DNA of 64,000 nt, from positions 1 through 64,000 of the forward strand of contig JAJECN010000011.1 in assembly GCA_022821965.1 (NCBI GenBank). Reading direction: 5' to 3'. The position numbers and the translations under genes were made by a program. This DNA comes from Candidatus Poribacteria bacterium (GTDB lineage Bacteria > Poribacteria > WGA-4E > WGA-3G). Below the pieces are notes generated by a model. That model was not told where the DNA came from. It worked only from the letters and a program-made list of their open reading frames with translations, and ran no database searches. Positions 19,246-62,570 of the stretch are shown in pieces (the stretch's first letter is position 1; each line of letters opens with the position of its first letter).

Positions 19246-19333
19246 GGTGGGATGGCAGAGTGGACGAATGCGGCGGTCTTGAAAACCGTTATGGCGAAAG
19301 CCATCGTGGGTTCGAATCCTACTCCCACCGCCA
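19246..19333 (+). tRNA. tRNA-Ser(TGA)
   Basis: The acceptor stem GGTGGGA/TCCCACC, anticodon loop CTTGAAA (anticodon TGA), long class II variable arm (ATGGC-GAAA-GCCAT) and T-loop TTCGAAT are all present. Discriminator is G and CCA is encoded at 19331-19333. Confidence 0.97.
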
Positions 19334-19336
19334 TAA

Positions 19337-19421
19337 GGAGAGGTGCAGGAGTGGTTGAACTGGATCGCCTGCTAAGCGATTATGGCGAAAGCCATCGTGG
19401 GTTCGAATCCCACCCTCTCCG
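19337..19421 (+). tRNA. tRNA-Ser(GCT)
   Basis: The acceptor stem GGAGAGG/CCTCTCC, anticodon loop CTGCTAA (anticodon GCT) and class II variable arm identical to that of the preceding tRNA-Ser are present. CCA is not encoded. It lies 3 bp after the previous tRNA, so the two are processed from one transcript. Confidence 0.96.
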
Positions 19422-19505
19422 TCTGTAAACAGAAAATTAGGTATAAAGAGGTGTATGACGGACAGAAAGTCTTGCCCGACACCTCAATGCCGGAGATGTA
19501 AACGC

Positions 19506-19579
19506 GCGCCTGTAGCTCAGCGGATTAGAGCATCTGACTACGGATCAGAAGGCCGGGGGTTCGAATCCTCTCAGGCGCT
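19506..19579 (+). tRNA. tRNA-Arg(ACG)
   Basis: The acceptor stem GCGCCTG/CAGGCGC and anticodon stem TCTGA/TCAGA hold the loop CTACGGA (anticodon ACG). A34 of this tRNA is the classical substrate of TadA, whose gene starts 25 bp downstream. The discriminator is T and CCA is not encoded. Confidence 0.95.
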
Positions 19580-19603
19580 TCAAAACCATTTGTTGGACAG
19601 AAT

Positions 19604-20062
19604 TTGGATAGCGATTCTTTCTGGATGCGACGAGCACTTAAATTAGCGCGGCAAGCAGGTGAAAAGGGTGAAGTCCCCGTTGGTGCTCTGCTTGTGAGTG
19701 GTGACACCTTGGTGGCTGAAGCGCACAACTTGCGCGAAACGTGCGGCAGTCCTATTGCCCACGCAGAAATGCTGGTTATACAAGCAGCATCCCAAAAAAT
19801 CGGCGATTGGCGGTTTATTGATACGACCCTTTATGTAACTTTAGAACCCTGCCCAATGTGTGCAGGGGCAATCGTATTAGCGCGTATCCCGAAAGTCGTT
19901 TACGCCGCAGCGGACCCAAAATCAGGGGCAGCCGGGACACTCTATAACATCCTCCAAGATGAACGGTTAAACCATCGGGTTGAATTGGTGAGTGGCGTGT
20001 TGGCAGAAGAGAGCAGCACCCTGTTAAAATCCTTCTTTCAAGAACGTCGTCGTCCATTGTAA
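19604..20062 (+). CDS. tadA: tRNA-specific adenosine deaminase
   Basis: TadA converts A34 of tRNA-Arg(ACG) to inosine, letting one tRNA read CGU, CGC and CGA. The 152-residue protein has the zinc and catalytic motifs HAE (IAHAEMLVI) and PCPMCAGA of cytidine/deoxycytidylate-type deaminases. It starts at TTG 19604 to give MDSDSFWMRRALKLA, in line with the WM..AL segment just after the N terminus in homologues; ATG 19625 would cut this helix. It sits directly behind the tRNA-Arg(ACG) gene and may be cotranscribed with it. Confidence 0.95.
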   Translation: MDSDSFWMRRALKLARQAGEKGEVPVGALLVSGDTLVAEAHNLRETCGSPIAHAEMLVIQAASQKIGDWRFIDTTLYVTLEPCPMCAGAIVLARIPKVVYAAADPKSGAAGTLYNILQDERLNHRVELVSGVLAEESSTLLKSFFQERRRPL

Positions 20063-20130
20063 GAAGGGACTATCAAAGTTCGGACGTACACACTATCCCG
20101 TCGCTATAGGGTAGATAGTTTATATCAGAA

Positions 20131-20215
20131 GGAGAGATGCAGGAGTGGTTGAACTGGACAGTCTCGAAAACTGTTGTGGCGCAAGTCACCGTGGGTTCGA
20201 ATCCCACTCTCTCCG
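20131..20215 (+). tRNA. tRNA-Ser(CGA)
   Basis: The acceptor stem GGAGAGA/TCTCTCC, anticodon stem ACAGT/ACTGT with loop CTCGAAA (anticodon CGA), and class II variable arm are present. Discriminator is G and CCA is not encoded. Confidence 0.95.
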
Positions 20216-20253
20216 TTTTCTCGCTTAATAATAGGACTCAAAAAGATTTTACT

Positions 20254-20279
20254 GTCGCAAAATGCCTAAGTTTTGCGAC
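20254..20279. other. Perfect 9-bp hairpin between tRNA-Ser(CGA) and tRNA-Ala
   Basis: GTCGCAAAA (20254-20262) and TTTTGCGAC (20271-20279) enclose an 8-nt loop and end 4 bp before tRNA-Ala. There is no following T-run, so processing or a dispersed palindrome is more likely than termination. Confidence 0.5.
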
Positions 20280-20283
20280 TTGT

Positions 20284-20356
20284 GGGGCAGTAGCTCAGTT
20301 GGGAGAGTGCATCCCTCGCACGGATGAGGTCACGGGTTCAAATCCCGTCTGCTCCA
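20284..20356 (+). tRNA. tRNA-Ala(CGC)
   Basis: The acceptor stem GGGGCAG/CTGCTCC includes the G3:U70 pair that identifies alanine tRNAs. The anticodon loop is CTCGCAC (anticodon CGC) and the discriminator is A. CCA is not encoded. Confidence 0.95.
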
Positions 20357-20368
20357 TACTTAATGGTG

Positions 20369-20453
20369 GTCAGTTGTCAGTCGTCAGTTATCGGTTAAAG
20401 AGGGAGCTTGTCGAGCTAACCTCGCTCTTAACTGACAACCGATAACTGAAAAC
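20369..20453. repeat. Palindromic element with degenerate heptanucleotide arms
   Basis: The left arm is built of TTGTCAG/TCGTCAG/TTATCGG heptads (20374-20394). The right arm is built of CTGACAA/CCGATAA/CTGAAAA (20432-20452). An inner imperfect stem AAGAGGGAG/CTCGCTCTT lies between them. The same heptads recur at 24873-25011, 38512-38546, 40964-40991 and 54026-54053. It sits between two tRNA genes. Confidence 0.75.
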
Positions 20454-20461
20454 TATAAAAC

Positions 20462-20553
20462 GGAGAGATGCAGGAGTTGGCTGAACTGGCATGACTGGAA
20501 ATCATGTGTGCTGTTTTGCAGTACCGTGGGTTCGAATCCCACTCTCTCCGCCA
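20462..20553 (+). tRNA. tRNA-Ser(GGA)
   Basis: The acceptor stem GGAGAGA/TCTCTCC, anticodon stem CATGA/TCATG with loop CTGGAAA (anticodon GGA) and a class II variable arm are present. CCA is encoded at 20551-20553. It is the fourth serine isoacceptor in the island. Confidence 0.96.
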
Positions 20554-55978: not shown

Positions 55979-58900
55979 TTAATTTTGAGTTAATGAATCA
56001 TTTTCTGTTTCAAGTGAGACGTGAAACATCCCACGCTGTTCAGTGGCTATATAAAGTTTATTGTCATTGACCACAATATCACAGATGCTATCAGGAATCT
56101 CCGGCGAGATTTTTTCCCACCTGTTTCGACTGTTCAACTGATAGCCCCCAGCCTTACCAGCACCATAAACCTTCGCGCCCGCCACAGCCAAGCGATCTAT
56201 GACGATGTGCGTCCCGACTTTATCGGTTATCGCACGCCAATTCTCCCCTGTTTGTGATGCCAAAACACCTGCGTCCGTGGCGACATAGATTGTTGAATCG
56301 GCAAAGACTATCTCGTTGAAACGTGTAAAACGGAGCGGCAAATTCGGAGTCAGGTTTCTCCATGTGTCTCCACCATCGAGTGATCGAAAAAGATGACCGT
56401 CGCGTTTTCCTACGTAGACCGTCTCCCCGGAAACCGCTAATTGGAATCCCCTGTCGAATTCATCATCAGGTTGTTCACTTGCATCTATTAGTCCCGTGTT
56501 CACCCATTCCGGGTCACCCGACTTCCATTTGAAAAGTCTCCGTTTATATTCAAGATAAAATGTGTTCCCACTGACAGCAAATCCACCAGCCTCTACCAAT
56601 TCCAGTTCTTCCATTTCCTCTTGTAGTGCTTCAAGGAGATCGCTGAACATACCAGCTACCTTACCTGCTTTTTCGCTGGCATTGGCGGCATCATTTGCCA
56701 TAACGTCTTCATACGCTTCCTCCAGCTCGGCTTCTCGCACATTTTTGGAAACATCTTTTCCCAAAACGGGCATGCCTGCAATTGAAGTTAGTGTGTTGCC
56801 GTCAACAGACATACGGAAAACGCGCAGTTTGCTTTTTTCCGGTGTAACAATGTAAAACACACCATCGGCAACCGTTAACTTTGGATGGTGGACTCGATCT
56901 GTGCGGTTTCTCTTCTCTATCGGTTCAAGGGCAGAGACACTAAAATCAACAAAAACACGTTTCCAAGACTCCCCATCGTCAAACGATTTGACAACAGTTG
57001 TGCCGGTATTGGCGTAGAGACCATTTTTAAATCCCACTAAATCCAGTATTCTGGTCCCCACCATATTTGCCATAAAGCGATGCCATGACGCGCCACCATC
57101 AATTGAACGTGTAGCACCAAGAGGTCCCACCCTAAAAAAAGTATTTTCGTTTACCGCTGCAGCGGGAAATATACCCAATGTCATTGTATTCTCATTAAAG
57201 GCGAGCTCTGTCCACGTTTGTCCGCGGTCGGTTGAACGAAATCCACCCATCCCAAGCACCAAGAGGGTATCACCGACAGCCACGACTCTGATACTCAGTG
57301 ATATTATTCTGGTAATAGATCTGTTTGTGGGCGTTATCTCAGTCCACGAATCTCCCAAATCAGTTGAGTGGAAAATCTCGTATGCCCCTTTATTGTTGAT
57401 GAACATTTGCCCCAACATCTGTCCTATTGCCACGGGATCAATTTCCTCATTGCATTCATAAAGATCCAGTCCTGTCCCTATATAGAGATTGTTTCCAGAA
57501 ACCGCCAAGGACTGAACGGATTTGGTAGTCTCTACCGATAACTTTTCCCAAACGCCTGAGCTTAGGCGATAGAGACCTCGATTCGTGCCAACAAATACAG
57601 TATCTTCAAGCGCAGTCAGTGCGAACATTTTTCCATCCAATGTCCCATCAGTTAGAGAAGTCCACTGCTTACCGGTATCCGTGGACCTGAAAACCCCTTT
57701 CTCCCGAAGCCCAAGATACAATGCCTTATCCGTCACCACTAAACCGACAGCAGATCCCTTCGGACGCATACCAAGCGACTGCCATGTTTCGCCTCTATCG
57801 GTCGAGGCAAATACCTTATCAATGGAAACAAGATAGAGGACATCACCTCGCTCTGCCATCGGTATCAGGCCAGAGGGTTCGGAATTTGGTGGATCGGTAA
57901 TCGGAAGGGTGGTGTTGACAAGCGTCCATGCCTGAGCCTCTGGACTCAACCTATAGATACCAATGGATGAGGCAGCATAGACATCTCCGCTGGAACTTGC
58001 CAGCAAACCCGATATCGCACCGCCTTCCGGTCCACTTGCTTGTATCCACTGTTGCTCCGCTGACGGTCGCGTCTCTTCTTCTATCTGTGCTGCACCAAGT
58101 GCAACAGGTTCCGAAAGTTGTGCACCAGCGCCGACATTCTTGCCAATGGTATCAAAACGCCCCGCTTGGTTCCGTAAATCGGGCTTTGCCTGCGTGTCAA
58201 GGACGATGGGCGCGTCAATAATTTCAATGGTGGTTTCCGATTGTGCGTCTACGTTGTAGGGTTTCTGAAAGCGGGCAAGGTATTGAGAGCCTACTCCCAT
58301 TATGAGAAAAATAACAATGGCTGTTGCTGCAGAAAGTGCCCACGGCATTAACGGCTTACCACCAGACGGTGCAGTAGGCTTCATACGTGAAACCTCTCGC
58401 ATGATGTTCTCCGTTAGATGCGGTGTGATTTTGAAATTTTCCAACGCCTCTCTTATGAGTGGCTCCTCTTTCCGTAAACGCTGCCGAGCACGCTGAAGAC
58501 GACTCTTAATCGTATTTACTGATACACCTAAAAACTCACCGATTTCTGCAGCCGACATTTCGCTGAAATAATGTAGAGTCATCACCGTGCGTTCACTCTC
58601 TTGGAGTTTCGCAAGCAATTTTTTCACGACTTCACGCTGCACTTCCGCCGCTGTTCGCTCGTTTTCCTCAACAACATATCCTGAATAGGTCGATTTTTCT
58701 AACTGTGCAACACTCGTTTCCTCTAATGACTGCATCCGTAAACGCTTTTTACGGAGCCATGTACTACAGTTATTCGCCGCTATAACATAAAGCCAACCCG
58801 CAAAACGTTGCGGTTTCTTTAACGTCGCCAGTCTCTGATACGCTTTCAGGAACGTATCTTGGGTAATCTCCTCAGCGGTGTGGAAATCACCAAGTTTCCG

Positions 58901-59008
58901 CCACACAAGTGCGTGAACGGGCTTTTCATATTTTTTCACAAGCTCGCTGAAAGCATTATCATCACCATCAAGAATCTGCTGAATGAGTTGAACATCACTG
59001 TTTTTCAT
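55979..59008 (-). CDS. Membrane-tethered ECF sigma factor fused to BNR/Asp-box propeller (paralogue 4)
   Basis: The 1009-residue protein has sigma region 2 (AEEITQDTFLKAYQRL), sigma region 4 (LQESERTVMTLHYFSEMSAAEIGEFLGVSVNTIKSRLQRARQRL), one transmembrane helix and a variant juxtamembrane block YLARFQKPYNVDAQSE. Asp-box repeats (STDRGETWQSL, STDTGKQWTSL, STDLGDSWTEI, SIDGGASWHRF, SLDGGDTWRNL) form the external propeller. ATG 59008 gives the family MKNSDVQLIQ start; the longer frame to 59104 runs through the leader. Its leader bases 59011-59034 are identical to those before the giant gene at 38037. Confidence 0.9.
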   Translation of the reverse strand: MKNSDVQLIQQILDGDDNAFSELVKKYEKPVHALVWRKLGDFHTAEEITQDTFLKAYQRLATLKKPQRFAGWLYVIAANNCSTWLRKKRLRMQSLEETSVAQLEKSTYSGYVVEENERTAAEVQREVVKKLLAKLQESERTVMTLHYFSEMSAAEIGEFLGVSVNTIKSRLQRARQRLRKEEPLIREALENFKITPHLTENIMREVSRMKPTAPSGGKPLMPWALSAATAIVIFLIMGVGSQYLARFQKPYNVDAQSETTIEIIDAPIVLDTQAKPDLRNQAGRFDTIGKNVGAGAQLSEPVALGAAQIEEETRPSAEQQWIQASGPEGGAISGLLASSSGDVYAASSIGIYRLSPEAQAWTLVNTTLPITDPPNSEPSGLIPMAERGDVLYLVSIDKVFASTDRGETWQSLGMRPKGSAVGLVVTDKALYLGLREKGVFRSTDTGKQWTSLTDGTLDGKMFALTALEDTVFVGTNRGLYRLSSGVWEKLSVETTKSVQSLAVSGNNLYIGTGLDLYECNEEIDPVAIGQMLGQMFINNKGAYEIFHSTDLGDSWTEITPTNRSITRIISLSIRVVAVGDTLLVLGMGGFRSTDRGQTWTELAFNENTMTLGIFPAAAVNENTFFRVGPLGATRSIDGGASWHRFMANMVGTRILDLVGFKNGLYANTGTTVVKSFDDGESWKRVFVDFSVSALEPIEKRNRTDRVHHPKLTVADGVFYIVTPEKSKLRVFRMSVDGNTLTSIAGMPVLGKDVSKNVREAELEEAYEDVMANDAANASEKAGKVAGMFSDLLEALQEEMEELELVEAGGFAVSGNTFYLEYKRRLFKWKSGDPEWVNTGLIDASEQPDDEFDRGFQLAVSGETVYVGKRDGHLFRSLDGGDTWRNLTPNLPLRFTRFNEIVFADSTIYVATDAGVLASQTGENWRAITDKVGTHIVIDRLAVAGAKVYGAGKAGGYQLNSRNRWEKISPEIPDSICDIVVNDNKLYIATEQRGMFHVSLETENDSLTQN

Positions 59009-59010
59009 TT

Positions 59011-59034
59011 TTTTAATTTTCCTTGCGGTTCGTT
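59011..59034 (-). promoter_or_regulatory. Leader with ribosome-binding site, shared with the 38-kb gene
   Basis: The 24-base block includes AAGGA and is identical in sequence to 38013-38036 on the plus strand. Confidence 0.6.
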
Positions 59035-59110
59035 CAGGCAGGTATGGTGAAATTGCTCGACACCGTATATAGACCTGCCACTTCGTTCCAAGAATTCCCT
59101 TCAATCACTT

Positions 59111-59154
59111 TATAGTGACGCTACTTAGAGATGAAAAGGGTGCATAACTTTGCA
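59111..59154 (-). promoter_or_regulatory. Array promoter copy 5, proximal (sigma-BNR paralogue 4)
   Basis: The minus strand reads GTTATGCACC, 17 bp, GCGTCACTATA (complement of 59111-59121). The start codon at 59008 is ~103 bp downstream, so the leader is longer than at other copies. Confidence 0.7.
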
Positions 59155-59218
59155 AGCATATTATACCATAAACAAAATGCGAATTGACAAACGAGGTATA
59201 ATTCTGACCCAACTGCCC

Positions 59219-59260
59219 TATAGTGACGCTGTTTAGAAATAAAAAGGGTGCATAATTCCG
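59219..59260 (-). promoter_or_regulatory. Array promoter copy 6, distal (sigma-BNR paralogue 4)
   Basis: The minus strand reads GAATTATGCACC, 17 bp, GCGTCACTATA (complement of 59219-59229), a tandem copy 108 bp upstream of copy 5. The remainder up to 59465 holds one weak hairpin (GTAGCA at 59387-59392 with TGCTAC at 59408-59413), a possible end signal for the sigma gene that stops at 59466. Confidence 0.68.
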
Positions 59261-59465
59261 AGAAAATGGATAAAGGAATCCTTAAATAATATAGGATGGA
59301 CGGAAAGGTTTGTTCTTTGGTGAGATTGAGGAAGAAAAAACAACGGAATGGGAAAACCGAGAATTGGACAGATTAATAATGTGCTTGTAGCATAAAATTT
59401 TAGTTTGTGCTACCCCAACCCCTTTCAGAAAAGTTGGCTTATGATATTTACTTTCAGAAATAGTA

Positions 59466-60794
59466 TTATTCAGTGCCTATAGAGATTTTCGCGAGAAAAG
59501 AATTGACCTTTTCTTCCCCACTGAACGAATTACCGGTAGCACCTAACTTAAAGCGTGTGCCTTCGTCAAAAAGGTGCGTGATCCTCCCTGCTTTACCGGG
59601 GATGATCCCTGATGCTGAGGTGAGTACAACTTCAGGCATACCGTCCGTGGAAAATTCGCTGTCGCTCGCGAACAGAATGAACGCGCCAGCAGCCTCTGCA
59701 CTCCCAATCCAGAGATCAATCGTGAGTACGCCGCCATCTTTAAACGCTGTCGCGTCGATTTCAACGACAGTATAATCTTGAGTACCCGCCACCGGTGTTC
59801 GCAAAATGCTCAAGACATTCTGTGAAGGTTCTTCATCGTTGAGGACAACCTTCTTTGCTTGTGCTGAAAGAAACCTCGGCACATATTCTGGTTGATCTGT
59901 GTTCGGGGCAAGTCCACCGCCTTTACTGGGGATTTCCGTAGACTTCCCCAGTTGCGTCCGCACATCCGGTTTCAACGTAAGATCCAGGACAATGGGTGTA
60001 TCGATGAGTTCTATCGTCATCTCCGATGGCGCATCAAAATTGTAAGGCTGTTGGAAACGTGTTAAGTACTGATTGCTGGCTCCAAACGCCATCACAACGA
60101 GGACAAGAGTCGAAGCAGCAATCGCCCACGGCACAAACGGTTTACCAAAAGAAGGCGGTGTAGGTGTGATACGGGAAATCTCTTGCATGATATTTTCGGT
60201 GAGATTCGCCCTAATTTGGAAACCTTCCAGTGCCTCTCGGATCATCGGTTCCGCTTTCTTTAAGCGAAGTCGTGCGCGACGGAGCCGACTTTTAACAGTA
60301 CTCGCCGACACACCCAAAAACCTGCTAATCTCTTCACACGTCATTTCTCCGAAGTAGTGAAGCGTGACGACGGTGCGTTCACTTTCCCGCAGTCGGGCAA
60401 GCAATCTTTGGACGATGTCGCGTTGCGCATCAGTCGCAGCTCTCTCCTGCTCCTCAGCGATATACTGAGAGTACGTCATCTTTTCTATCAAGTTGGCATC
60501 TGTGTCTTCAAGCGATTGTGTCTGCCTTCGTTTCTTTCTCAGCCACGCGTGGCATTGACGCGCAGCAATTCTATAAAGCCACCCAGCAAAACGATGCGGA
60601 TCCTTTAGCGTCGCCAATTTCTTATAGACTTGCAAAAAGGTGTCCTGTGTAACCTCTTCAGCGACATGGAAATCGCCTATCTTCCGCCACGCAAGCGCGT
60701 GGACATGCTTTTGGTATTTTCTCACCAACGTAGCAAAAGCGTTTTCATCGCCTGTGAGACTGTCTTGAATCAGTTCAGCATCGTCATTCTTCAT
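59466..60794 (-). CDS. Membrane-tethered ECF sigma factor with small beta-rich external domain (paralogue 5)
   Basis: The 442-residue protein is the shortest of the array. It has sigma region 2 (AEEVTQDTFLQVYKKL), sigma region 4 (LRESERTVVTLHYFGEMTCEEISRFLGVSASTVKSRLRRARLRL), one transmembrane helix and the block YLTRFQQPYNFDAPSEM. Instead of a propeller it has a ~120-residue beta-rich domain (VLSILRTPVAGTQDYTVVEIDATAFKDGG ... GTRFKLGATGNSFS). This domain is homologous to the C-terminal domain of the protein encoded just upstream. GGAGG is 6 nt before ATG 60794. No array promoter precedes it, so it is presumably transcribed from the promoter at 63.8 kb. Confidence 0.9.
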   Translation of the reverse strand: MKNDDAELIQDSLTGDENAFATLVRKYQKHVHALAWRKIGDFHVAEEVTQDTFLQVYKKLATLKDPHRFAGWLYRIAARQCHAWLRKKRRQTQSLEDTDANLIEKMTYSQYIAEEQERAATDAQRDIVQRLLARLRESERTVVTLHYFGEMTCEEISRFLGVSASTVKSRLRRARLRLKKAEPMIREALEGFQIRANLTENIMQEISRITPTPPSFGKPFVPWAIAASTLVLVVMAFGASNQYLTRFQQPYNFDAPSEMTIELIDTPIVLDLTLKPDVRTQLGKSTEIPSKGGGLAPNTDQPEYVPRFLSAQAKKVVLNDEEPSQNVLSILRTPVAGTQDYTVVEIDATAFKDGGVLTIDLWIGSAEAAGAFILFASDSEFSTDGMPEVVLTSASGIIPGKAGRITHLFDEGTRFKLGATGNSFSGEEKVNSFLAKISIGTE

Positions 60795-60884: not shown

Positions 60885-61736
60885 TTAGTGTTTATCCTCT
60901 TCTTCGGGGATGGGGGTTACAAAAATTGTAGCGTGAAAGGCGTTGATACTCCCTTCCTCACTGAACCAACTGCCAGTACCGCCCAACTTGAAAACTTTCC
61001 CTTGGTCGAAACGATACTTGATTGTTCCCTTTTTACCGGGGAGAATATCCCATGCAGAGGCGAGCGCGCTGTGAGGCGTACCCCGTGTAGGAAGTTCAGT
61101 GTCACCATCATAGAGGTCGAACGAGCCCTTGGAGTCAGCACTCCCTACCAAGATGTTAATAATAAGTAGCCCCTCGCCCTTAAACGCTGTCGTATCAATT
61201 TCAATGACAGTATAATCTTGGTATCCTGATTTTGGTGTCCGAAAAATGTTGAGAACTTCCCGCTTAGGTTTTTTACTCGTGAGTATGACTTTCAAATCCT
61301 TTGAAATAGCAGCATCTAATTCAGAAAGAGACTCCGAATCAGGTTCCGGTGAAGTTTTCGAGGTATCCTCGCCGAATCCAGGGCGTTTTCCTGCTAAGGA
61401 CTCCTGGAGAAACGTCAAGTAAAGTCTCGGTGTGTTTCCACCAGCAAAAAGAAGTTCATTGACAGGTTGCCTACCCATCAATTCAAACGTCGGCGATATA
61501 ACCAAACAATCTACGGGCGAACCTTTCTTCCAACTCTTTATGATGGCTTGCGCTAAAGCATGCGTCGTATCAAATGTCTTAGATTCGCGCTCGCGTCTCT
61601 TAGCAATCGGTTCCCGCAGACTTGGGACGCGCCCTAATTCGGAATTGGGGACCCAAGTGTTGATGAAATTTTCGTTCAAGTATTTTATAATTCGGTCACT
61701 TGAGAGGACACCTGCCCTCAATGATTTGCCACTCCC
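60885..61736 (-). CDS. Candidate selenoprotein, C-terminal part after in-frame UGA (thioredoxin-like plus shared beta domain)
   Basis: This part continues in the same frame directly after the TGA at 61737-61739. Read through, the junction is ADEAC-U-GSGKSLRAGVLSSDRIIKYLNENF, a Cys-Sec thioredoxin-like active site followed by helix alpha1. VDCLVISPTFELMGRQPV carries the cis-Pro region of the thioredoxin fold. The last ~110 residues (VLNIFRTPKSGYQDYTVIEIDTTAFKGEG) match the external domain of the neighbouring sigma factor. An independent start at TTG 61721 is possible but would remove the active site. Read-through gives ~561 residues in total. Confidence 0.7.
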   Translation of the reverse strand, partial: GSGKSLRAGVLSSDRIIKYLNENFINTWVPNSELGRVPSLREPIAKRRERESKTFDTTHALAQAIIKSWKKGSPVDCLVISPTFELMGRQPVNELLFAGGNTPRLYLTFLQESLAGKRPGFGEDTSKTSPEPDSESLSELDAAISKDLKVILTSKKPKREVLNIFRTPKSGYQDYTVIEIDTTAFKGEGLLIINILVGSADSKGSFDLYDGDTELPTRGTPHSALASAWDILPGKKGTIKYRFDQGKVFKLGGTGSWFSEEGSINAFHATIFVTPIPEEEDKH

Positions 61737-61739
61737 TCA
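61700..61739 (-). promoter_or_regulatory. In-frame UGA with SECIS-like hairpin
   Basis: The UGA codon is the complement of 61737-61739. After 15 nt a 7-bp stem TTGAGGG/CTCTCAA (one G:U pair) occupies 61700-61721 and holds an 8-nt loop containing GGU. Distance to the loop (22 nt), stem length and loop guanines fit the known bacterial SECIS pattern. No sel genes or tRNA-Sec lie in the window. Confidence 0.55.
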
Positions 61740-62570
61740 GCACGCCTCGTCGGCGAGCGGTCCATCAATGGAGATAACGTGAATTGGCTTTTCTTGTGCT
61801 GGTGCCATCTCCAATGCCTCCTCCAACGATACCCAGTTGATCTGCTGCGATTTGTAAAAACGCAGTATTAAGGCACGTTCAGCTGCTGCTTGGGTAATAG
61901 ATTCCGCAAACTTGATATCCGATACACCTTCTGGTGCCTTAGTACGGAGTTCCATTTGCGGACAAAAACCGACATCTATAGCTCCAGTACTGTTTCGTCC
62001 GACGTCAAAATTCAGTACACCTTCAGGAACATACATCTTGAAGAAAGCAATCTCCTCTCTAATTCGATCAATAACAAGATGTCCTGTAAACTGAGACGGG
62101 GTGAACCGACCATCGTTTAAGACGAATTCTGCATGGATGCGGAATACAATCTCAGCAACTTCATCATTGTAGGCGCGCAGACATGCCCATAGTCCACGGG
62201 AATCTCCCACATTGATGTCCAGGTCCAGCCGCGGATTGGGGTTCAGTTGTCTCAGTAATTCCAGCGCACCCTCTTCCTCAATCTGCCAGAGATCGCCGAC
62301 AGAAACCGCTTTGGAGGGCAGAAAAGCACGAAAAACCGATGTTGGATACCGTTTCTCCGGTTCAGCAACCCGCAAATTTGCCAATTCATCCCATTCCACA
62401 TGGTAATTGTATTGTGTATATTCAATTGGGGCAATAAAGCCTTCCACTAACACTTCTGATGCCCCATCAAGACTAAGTGTAATTTTCTTGTTAGCTGCCG
62501 AATGGTCATCGGCATTCAGCTGTCCATTCATTATTACCAGTATCAAAAAACTAATCGTTAAAGTCTTCAT
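61737..62570 (-). CDS. Candidate selenoprotein, N-terminal part up to in-frame UGA
   Basis: The 277-residue part starts with a Sec signal (MKTLTISFLILVIMNGQLNA) and AAGGAG upstream of ATG 62570. A beta-rich domain of no recognised family follows (~30-235). The last segment KPIHVISIDGPLADEAC is the first strand and active-site Cys of a thioredoxin-like fold, ended by TGA. The reading frame continues on the other side of this single TGA to 60885, so the two parts are described as one gene. A nonsense mutation is the alternative. It is 32 bp behind the TolB-like gene. Confidence 0.75.
   Translation of the reverse strand: MKTLTISFLILVIMNGQLNADDHSAANKKITLSLDGASEVLVEGFIAPIEYTQYNYHVEWDELANLRVAEPEKRYPTSVFRAFLPSKAVSVGDLWQIEEEGALELLRQLNPNPRLDLDINVGDSRGLWACLRAYNDEVAEIVFRIHAEFVLNDGRFTPSQFTGHLVIDRIREEIAFFKMYVPEGVLNFDVGRNSTGAIDVGFCPQMELRTKAPEGVSDIKFAESITQAAAERALILRFYKSQQINWVSLEEALEMAPAQEKPIHVISIDGPLADEAC

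Follow-up and report, generated by a model that had tools for sequence, protein, structure and literature searches.

How a single in-frame UGA codon is read, and what kind of protein results, are the questions raised by one locus of the window, the stretch of 64,000 nucleotides of DNA from a sponge-associated Candidatus Poribacteria bacterium analysed here. An earlier note on this DNA had put forward a candidate new selenoprotein, in which one TGA (61737-61739) separates two reading frames of the same phase and directly follows Cys in a thioredoxin-like active site, and this observation is borne out. The gene, called SelN-like here for its likeness to selenoprotein N (SELENON), lies at 60885..62570 on the minus strand and spans 561 codons from ATG 62570 to TAA 60887-60885. 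Its frame, preceded by a Shine-Dalgarno-like AAGGAG at 62585-62580, is interrupted solely by the TGA at 61739-61737, with one ORF of this frame on either side (62570-61737 and 61721-60885, minus). Read through, the gene yields 561 residues, and the UGA codon (61737..61739, minus) would supply a selenocysteine (Sec), U278, in the active site ...PLADEAC-U-GSGKSLRAGVLS..., that is, in the context DEAC-U-GSGKSLR.

Selenocysteine machinery of the genome

The genes that the earlier note had proposed to look for, selA, selB, selD and tRNA-Sec, are all present in the window's own genome (5.69 Mb in 62 contigs, 95% complete). A tRNA-Sec with the anticodon TCA (UCA) scores 78 bits and lies ~60 bp from selB, while selA and selD score 600 and 359 bits, respectively. 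The selD gene (contig C15, L050:1568-2600) itself contains a TGA, at L050 1617-1619, in the context CAG-U-ASKL, where SelD is known to carry Sec; this genome thus already has one independent selenoprotein.

UGA recoding to Trp or Gly occurs in other bacteria, and this precedent lends some support to the idea that a reassigned code or a suppressor tRNA, with insertion of Trp or Cys, accounts for the read-through. However, the window also uses TGA as an ordinary stop: it terminates three further long ORFs downstream of which the frames are short, so that no global change of the code is indicated. With a complete Sec system in the genome, a UGA at the known position of SelD and a SECIS-type hairpin conserved right after the UGAs of the family, decoding other than as Sec has a very low probability.

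Across Poribacteria, co-occurrence of the family with selA is blurred by MAG gaps, and eight genomes bearing the family were found without a full-length selA. Four of these have a tRNA-Sec above the cut-off, one has a full selB with an adjacent low-scoring tRNA-Sec-like gene, and three, which are incomplete MAGs (73-83% complete), gave neither a detectable tRNA-Sec nor a full selB. In a relative with SelN-like UGA genes, a tRNA-Sec-like gene next to selB (G062:C54:31679-31784) is 106 nt long and scores just 39.5 bits, as if it had undergone insertion or decay. The window itself holds, at 19246-20553, a tRNA cluster made up of four tRNA-Ser (TGA, GCT, CGA and GGA anticodons) together with tRNAs for Arg and Ala.

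Conservation of the UGA codon in Poribacteria

Ten more homologous ORFs occur in the same genome, clustered on contigs C10, C42, C34, C19, C60 and C37, and all of them have TGA at the same column, within the motif D-E-[SA]-C-U-[GA]-[SNT]-G-K-x-L-R. A scan of public genomes returned 77 loci, every one from Candidatus Poribacteria MAGs, and when these fetched loci are taken together with the own genome, TGA is present at 161 of 161 distinct homologous sites; neither Cys, for which the earlier note had suggested that homologues be aligned, nor an unrelated residue takes its place. When 85 Poribacteria genomes were searched with a profile, the family was present in 65, with up to 16 copies each, an unusual number for one Sec family, and among the matches listed every family member had exactly one internal TGA. 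If any codon is allowed at the Sec position, the motif has 393 occurrences in the 85 genomes (sum of per-genome counts), whereas its Cys version has 0. Among the any-codon matches listed, one in a genome without the family (G004) has a codon other than TGA and looks like a chance occurrence. A tblastn search against plasmids and phages gave zero matches, and the sole match of an IMG/VR scan (L159), a long phage ORF that contains LNENFIN by chance, was rejected. Within the reach of these searches, the window protein is a member of a large paralogous family limited to Poribacteria.

This conservation bears on two simpler explanations. In a MAG of 62 contigs one might suspect faulty sequencing or assembly, or a mutated pseudogene; yet the TGA recurs at all 161 sites in many assemblies, including single-contig genomes (e.g. 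G080, G082-G084), and coding is conserved on both sides of it. The read error at 61737-61739 for which the earlier note had allowed is thereby excluded, and the probability of an artefact or a decayed gene is negligible. Alternatively, the UGA could be a true stop between two separate proteins, the second of which would start at TTG 61721, a codon 15 nt past the TGA and preceded by the purine-rich GAGGGAG, and the ordinary use of TGA as a stop by the three other long ORFs of the window would fit such an arrangement. Against it, a stop at 61739-61737 would cut the thioredoxin active site in the middle, all homologues are split at exactly this codon, and the residues encoded between TGA and TTG include Gly281 and Lys282, which never change across homologues although their codons vary synonymously. 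Two separate proteins are therefore very improbable, and read-through of the UGA is preferred.

A SECIS-type hairpin downstream of the UGA

A hairpin with GGU at its apex had been described at 61700-61721, 15 nt downstream of the UGA, and it was found there with the apical loop AGGU. The core of this bSECIS-type element, GAGGGC-AGGU-GUCCUC (61704..61719, minus), begins 18 nt after the UGA, and weaker flanking pairs extend it to 61721-61700. With a 4-nt loop, a 6-bp stem, a spacing of 23 nt and an energy of -11.4 kcal/mol (50-nt stretch), the element conforms in all four respects to the rules published for bSECIS elements. Taken alone, the window hairpin is no more stable than its shuffles (z = -0.07), and the RNA evidence is comparative, drawn from a set of 148 distinct sequences, or 41 after reduction at 85% identity.

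In the 148 sequences, a six-pair stem closes a loop of AGGU or AGUU at 18-33 nt past the UGA. Since the mean folding energy downstream of the UGA differs little from that of synonymous shuffles (z -0.6 to -1.7), a pair-specific test was used instead. The two arms pair at 96% in register, a figure that drops to 45-82% once either is shifted against the other by 1-3 nt, and the pairing exceeds that of 300 out of 300 synonymous-codon shuffles, in which codons were swapped only between sequences. Coupled changes are seen in the stem, from GAGGGC/GUCCUC to GAGAGC/GCUCUC and GAGGAC/GUCCUC, and from AGG..GUC to AGA..GCU, and the inner pairs are missing in ~10 of the 148 hairpins, those in which codon +10 is GAG or GAA. 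Codon choice follows the same pattern: at +7, where Arg is invariant, the codon is AGG or AGA without exception. AGG is used there by 34 of the 41 reduced sequences, although it makes up 7% of the Arg codons in the rest of these genes; likewise, 40 of 41 encode Leu +11 by CUC, which has a share of 18% elsewhere. The binomial values for these choices overstate significance because the sequences are related, but the contrast is nonetheless large. Judged from these alignments, it is the hairpin that forces rare synonymous codons at +7 and +11.

Because the Sec machinery is present, TGA is kept at all 161 sites read, Cys versions number zero in the 85 Poribacteria genomes and the hairpin is conserved, the UGA of the window gene is very likely decoded as selenocysteine.

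Domain architecture and proposed chemistry

The product had been pictured as a secreted protein of three parts, an unknown domain, a thioredoxin-like one and a sigma-linked one, and the predictions agree with this picture. A signal peptide without a lipobox Cys is predicted at aa 1-20 (MKTLTISFLILVIMNGQLNA; 62511..62570, minus) from sequence, hydropathy and a helix at 2-19 of the model. The AlphaFold model, computed from a 40-sequence alignment with Cys replacing Sec, has a mean pLDDT of 84 and superseded a single-sequence prediction with a pLDDT of 34. It arranges in order the signal helix, a beta-rich N-terminal domain (~aa 30-215; 61926..62483, minus), a thioredoxin-like domain (~aa 226-392; 61395..61895, minus) whose active-site helix starts with Cys277-Sec278, a linker modelled with low confidence (401-423), and a C-terminal beta-sandwich (~aa 424-553; 60912..61301, minus), which recurs at the C-terminal end of neighbouring ECF sigma fusions. 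The number of beta-sandwiches varies among relatives: in the own genome, four genes for SelN-like selenoproteins stand in tandem (L043, C10:174000-184500), of which some encode a single C-terminal domain of this kind and others two, and like arrays occur in many Poribacteria loci.

The window protein had zero matches in Pfam and NCBIfam, and PDB sequence searches gave nothing meaningful. Foldseek matched the model to Thioredox_DsbH, ERp18, and collagen-binding and protease-associated beta-sandwiches, of which the first two are assigned to the middle part of the predicted structure and the beta-sandwiches to its C-terminal part. Model and structural matches support the thioredoxin-like active site. 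Thioredox_DsbH (DUF255) and ERp18/TXNDC12 share the predicted fold and the active-site position with the window protein, but they have CxxC whereas it has C-U with Gly at +3, and the sequence matches are sub-threshold, the score against Thioredox_DsbH (PF03190) being 13.8 bits versus a Pfam gathering cut-off of 27. Set against the ERp18 motif, Sec of the window protein appears to occupy the site of the attacking Cys of CxxC, Gly replaces the +3 Cys, and the partner Cys stands at -1.

On this basis a mechanism can be proposed, in which SelB, tRNA-Sec(UCA) and the downstream hairpin would insert selenocysteine at the UGA and, after export, the thioredoxin-like domain would act as a periplasmic thiol/disulfide oxidoreductase. 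Sec278 would replace the attacking Cys of CxxC and the neighbouring Cys277 would be the resolving residue, so that catalysis would proceed through a Cys-Sec selenenylsulfide and not through the usual +3 Cys. The C-terminal beta-sandwich may be a targeting or ligand-binding module.

Relationship to selenoprotein N

Selenoprotein N (SELENON/SEPN1) is an animal protein, the loss of which leads to human muscle disease and the enzymatic role of which is unsettled; we know of no solved SELENON structure. In BLASTP against a provisional sequence of human SELENON, not copied from a database, the window protein aligned at 30% identity over 203 aa (E 7e-29), with Sec on Sec, and the alignment covers the N-terminal as well as the thioredoxin-like domain. 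Paralogues with W-G-x-L/F-D-D-E-S-C-U are closer to the provisional sequence (E 3e-37). As a check on this sequence, published residue numbers were compared: human Sec462, which stands in SCUG, and Gly463, Arg466 and Arg469 (PMC8967691, PMC3541580) line up with U, U+1, U+4 (Lys/Arg) and U+7 (Arg) of the family. The family is, as these alignments suggest, very probably homologous to eukaryotic SELENON.

It may be argued that the protein is a selenoprotein whose likeness to SELENON reflects a generic thioredoxin-like fold with a CU motif, considering that the human sequence was provisional, that the EF-hand and type II ER topology of SELENON were not seen, and that Pfam sets the domain weakly near Thioredox_DsbH. 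Nevertheless, the similarity extends past the thioredoxin-like domain into the N-terminal domain (FTPSQFTGH... / FSPAQFTGH...), the later part of which, FTPSQFTGHLVIDR...PQMEL, shares homology with the luminal portion of the provisional human sequence; E values range from ~1e-28 to 1e-37 while a reversed-sequence control gave E 0.26 at best of the matches listed, and the published G463, R466 and R469 fall in register. A merely generic likeness is hence quite unlikely, and homology is preferred.

The two proteins have in common a Cys-Sec-Gly active site in a thioredoxin-like domain (SCUG in most members, ACUG in the window protein), a preceding N-terminal domain, a non-cytosolic location, and Gly at +1 in most, Lys/Arg at +4 and Arg at +7, the bacterial family having S/A-C-U-G/A, K/R at +4 and R at +7. 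They differ in that SELENON has a membrane anchor and a 3'UTR element, whereas the window protein has a signal peptide, an in-gene bacterial SECIS and an extra C-terminal beta-sandwich, and its family reaches up to 16 copies per genome. Moreover, Pfam did not find the EF-hand of SELENON in the bacterial protein, and in place of a type II ER membrane topology there is only an N-terminal signal-peptide-like segment in a bacterial host, so that the protein is a homologue of SELENON and does not have the same architecture. A compact SelN-like ORF of the own genome (L048, C37:2548-3528, minus) stops after the thioredoxin-like domain without the C-terminal beta-sandwich; its product is among the closest to human SELENON, by the provisional sequence, and this architecture is possibly ancestral.

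Taken as a whole, the explanation as a secreted bacterial selenoprotein homologous to SELENON, a periplasmic Cys-Sec oxidoreductase that would receive Sec via SelB, tRNA-Sec and the hairpin, is favoured with high confidence. It is conceivable, though rather unlikely, that the poribacterial family is the bacterial sister of animal SELENON, or its source. In that case the gene would have moved between Poribacteria living in sponges and early animals, a 3'UTR element would have taken over from the in-gene bacterial SECIS, and the bacterial proteins would have kept the original catalysis without the calcium-sensing part. Bacterial homologues that are soluble and lack the EF-hand could be amenable to expression and structure determination, which would make the C-U chemistry directly testable.

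A catalogue of prokaryotic selenoproteins from 2026 holds 119 families, of which SelD/SEPHS2, GPX, deiodinase-like, SELENOW-like and MsrA are common to eukaryotes (PMC13188914, May 2026). Neither this catalogue nor one earlier catalogue has a SELENON-like or SCUG-type entry; KCU-star, SaoC, MbdU and HgcA (PMC13188914) share the adjacent Cys-Sec pair but belong to other families with other domains. Searches of open-access papers gave none on bacterial SelN or Poribacteria selenoproteins. The proposal of a new selenoprotein is supported, and the family is absent from PMC13188914, Pfam and NCBIfam; the SELENON homology and the large paralogous family had been missed.

Neighbouring ECF sigma factors

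The description of the C-terminal domain as sigma-linked proved to be real, as the same domain recurs in the adjacent gene (59466..60794, minus), in which an ECF sigma factor is fused via one TM helix to the beta-sandwich (~59849-59475). An ECF sigma factor fusion lies near the SelN-like gene in 23 of 52 well-covered loci, and the one beside the window gene is its probable functional partner. Because a single TM helix separates the sigma part from the beta-sandwich, the latter would be placed outside the membrane, like the exported selenoprotein, and a membrane ECF sigma with the same external module suggests, speculatively, that a common partner is probably recognised by the enzyme and by the sensor. 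The selenoprotein may, in turn, be under sigma regulation. At 55979-60794 the window encodes two ECF sigma factors in tandem. Each is fused via a single TM helix to a large extracytoplasmic region, which is a beta-sandwich in one protein and a set of BNR/sortilin-like repeats in the other, and the two may be one-piece transmembrane sigma sensors that operate without a separate anti-sigma factor.
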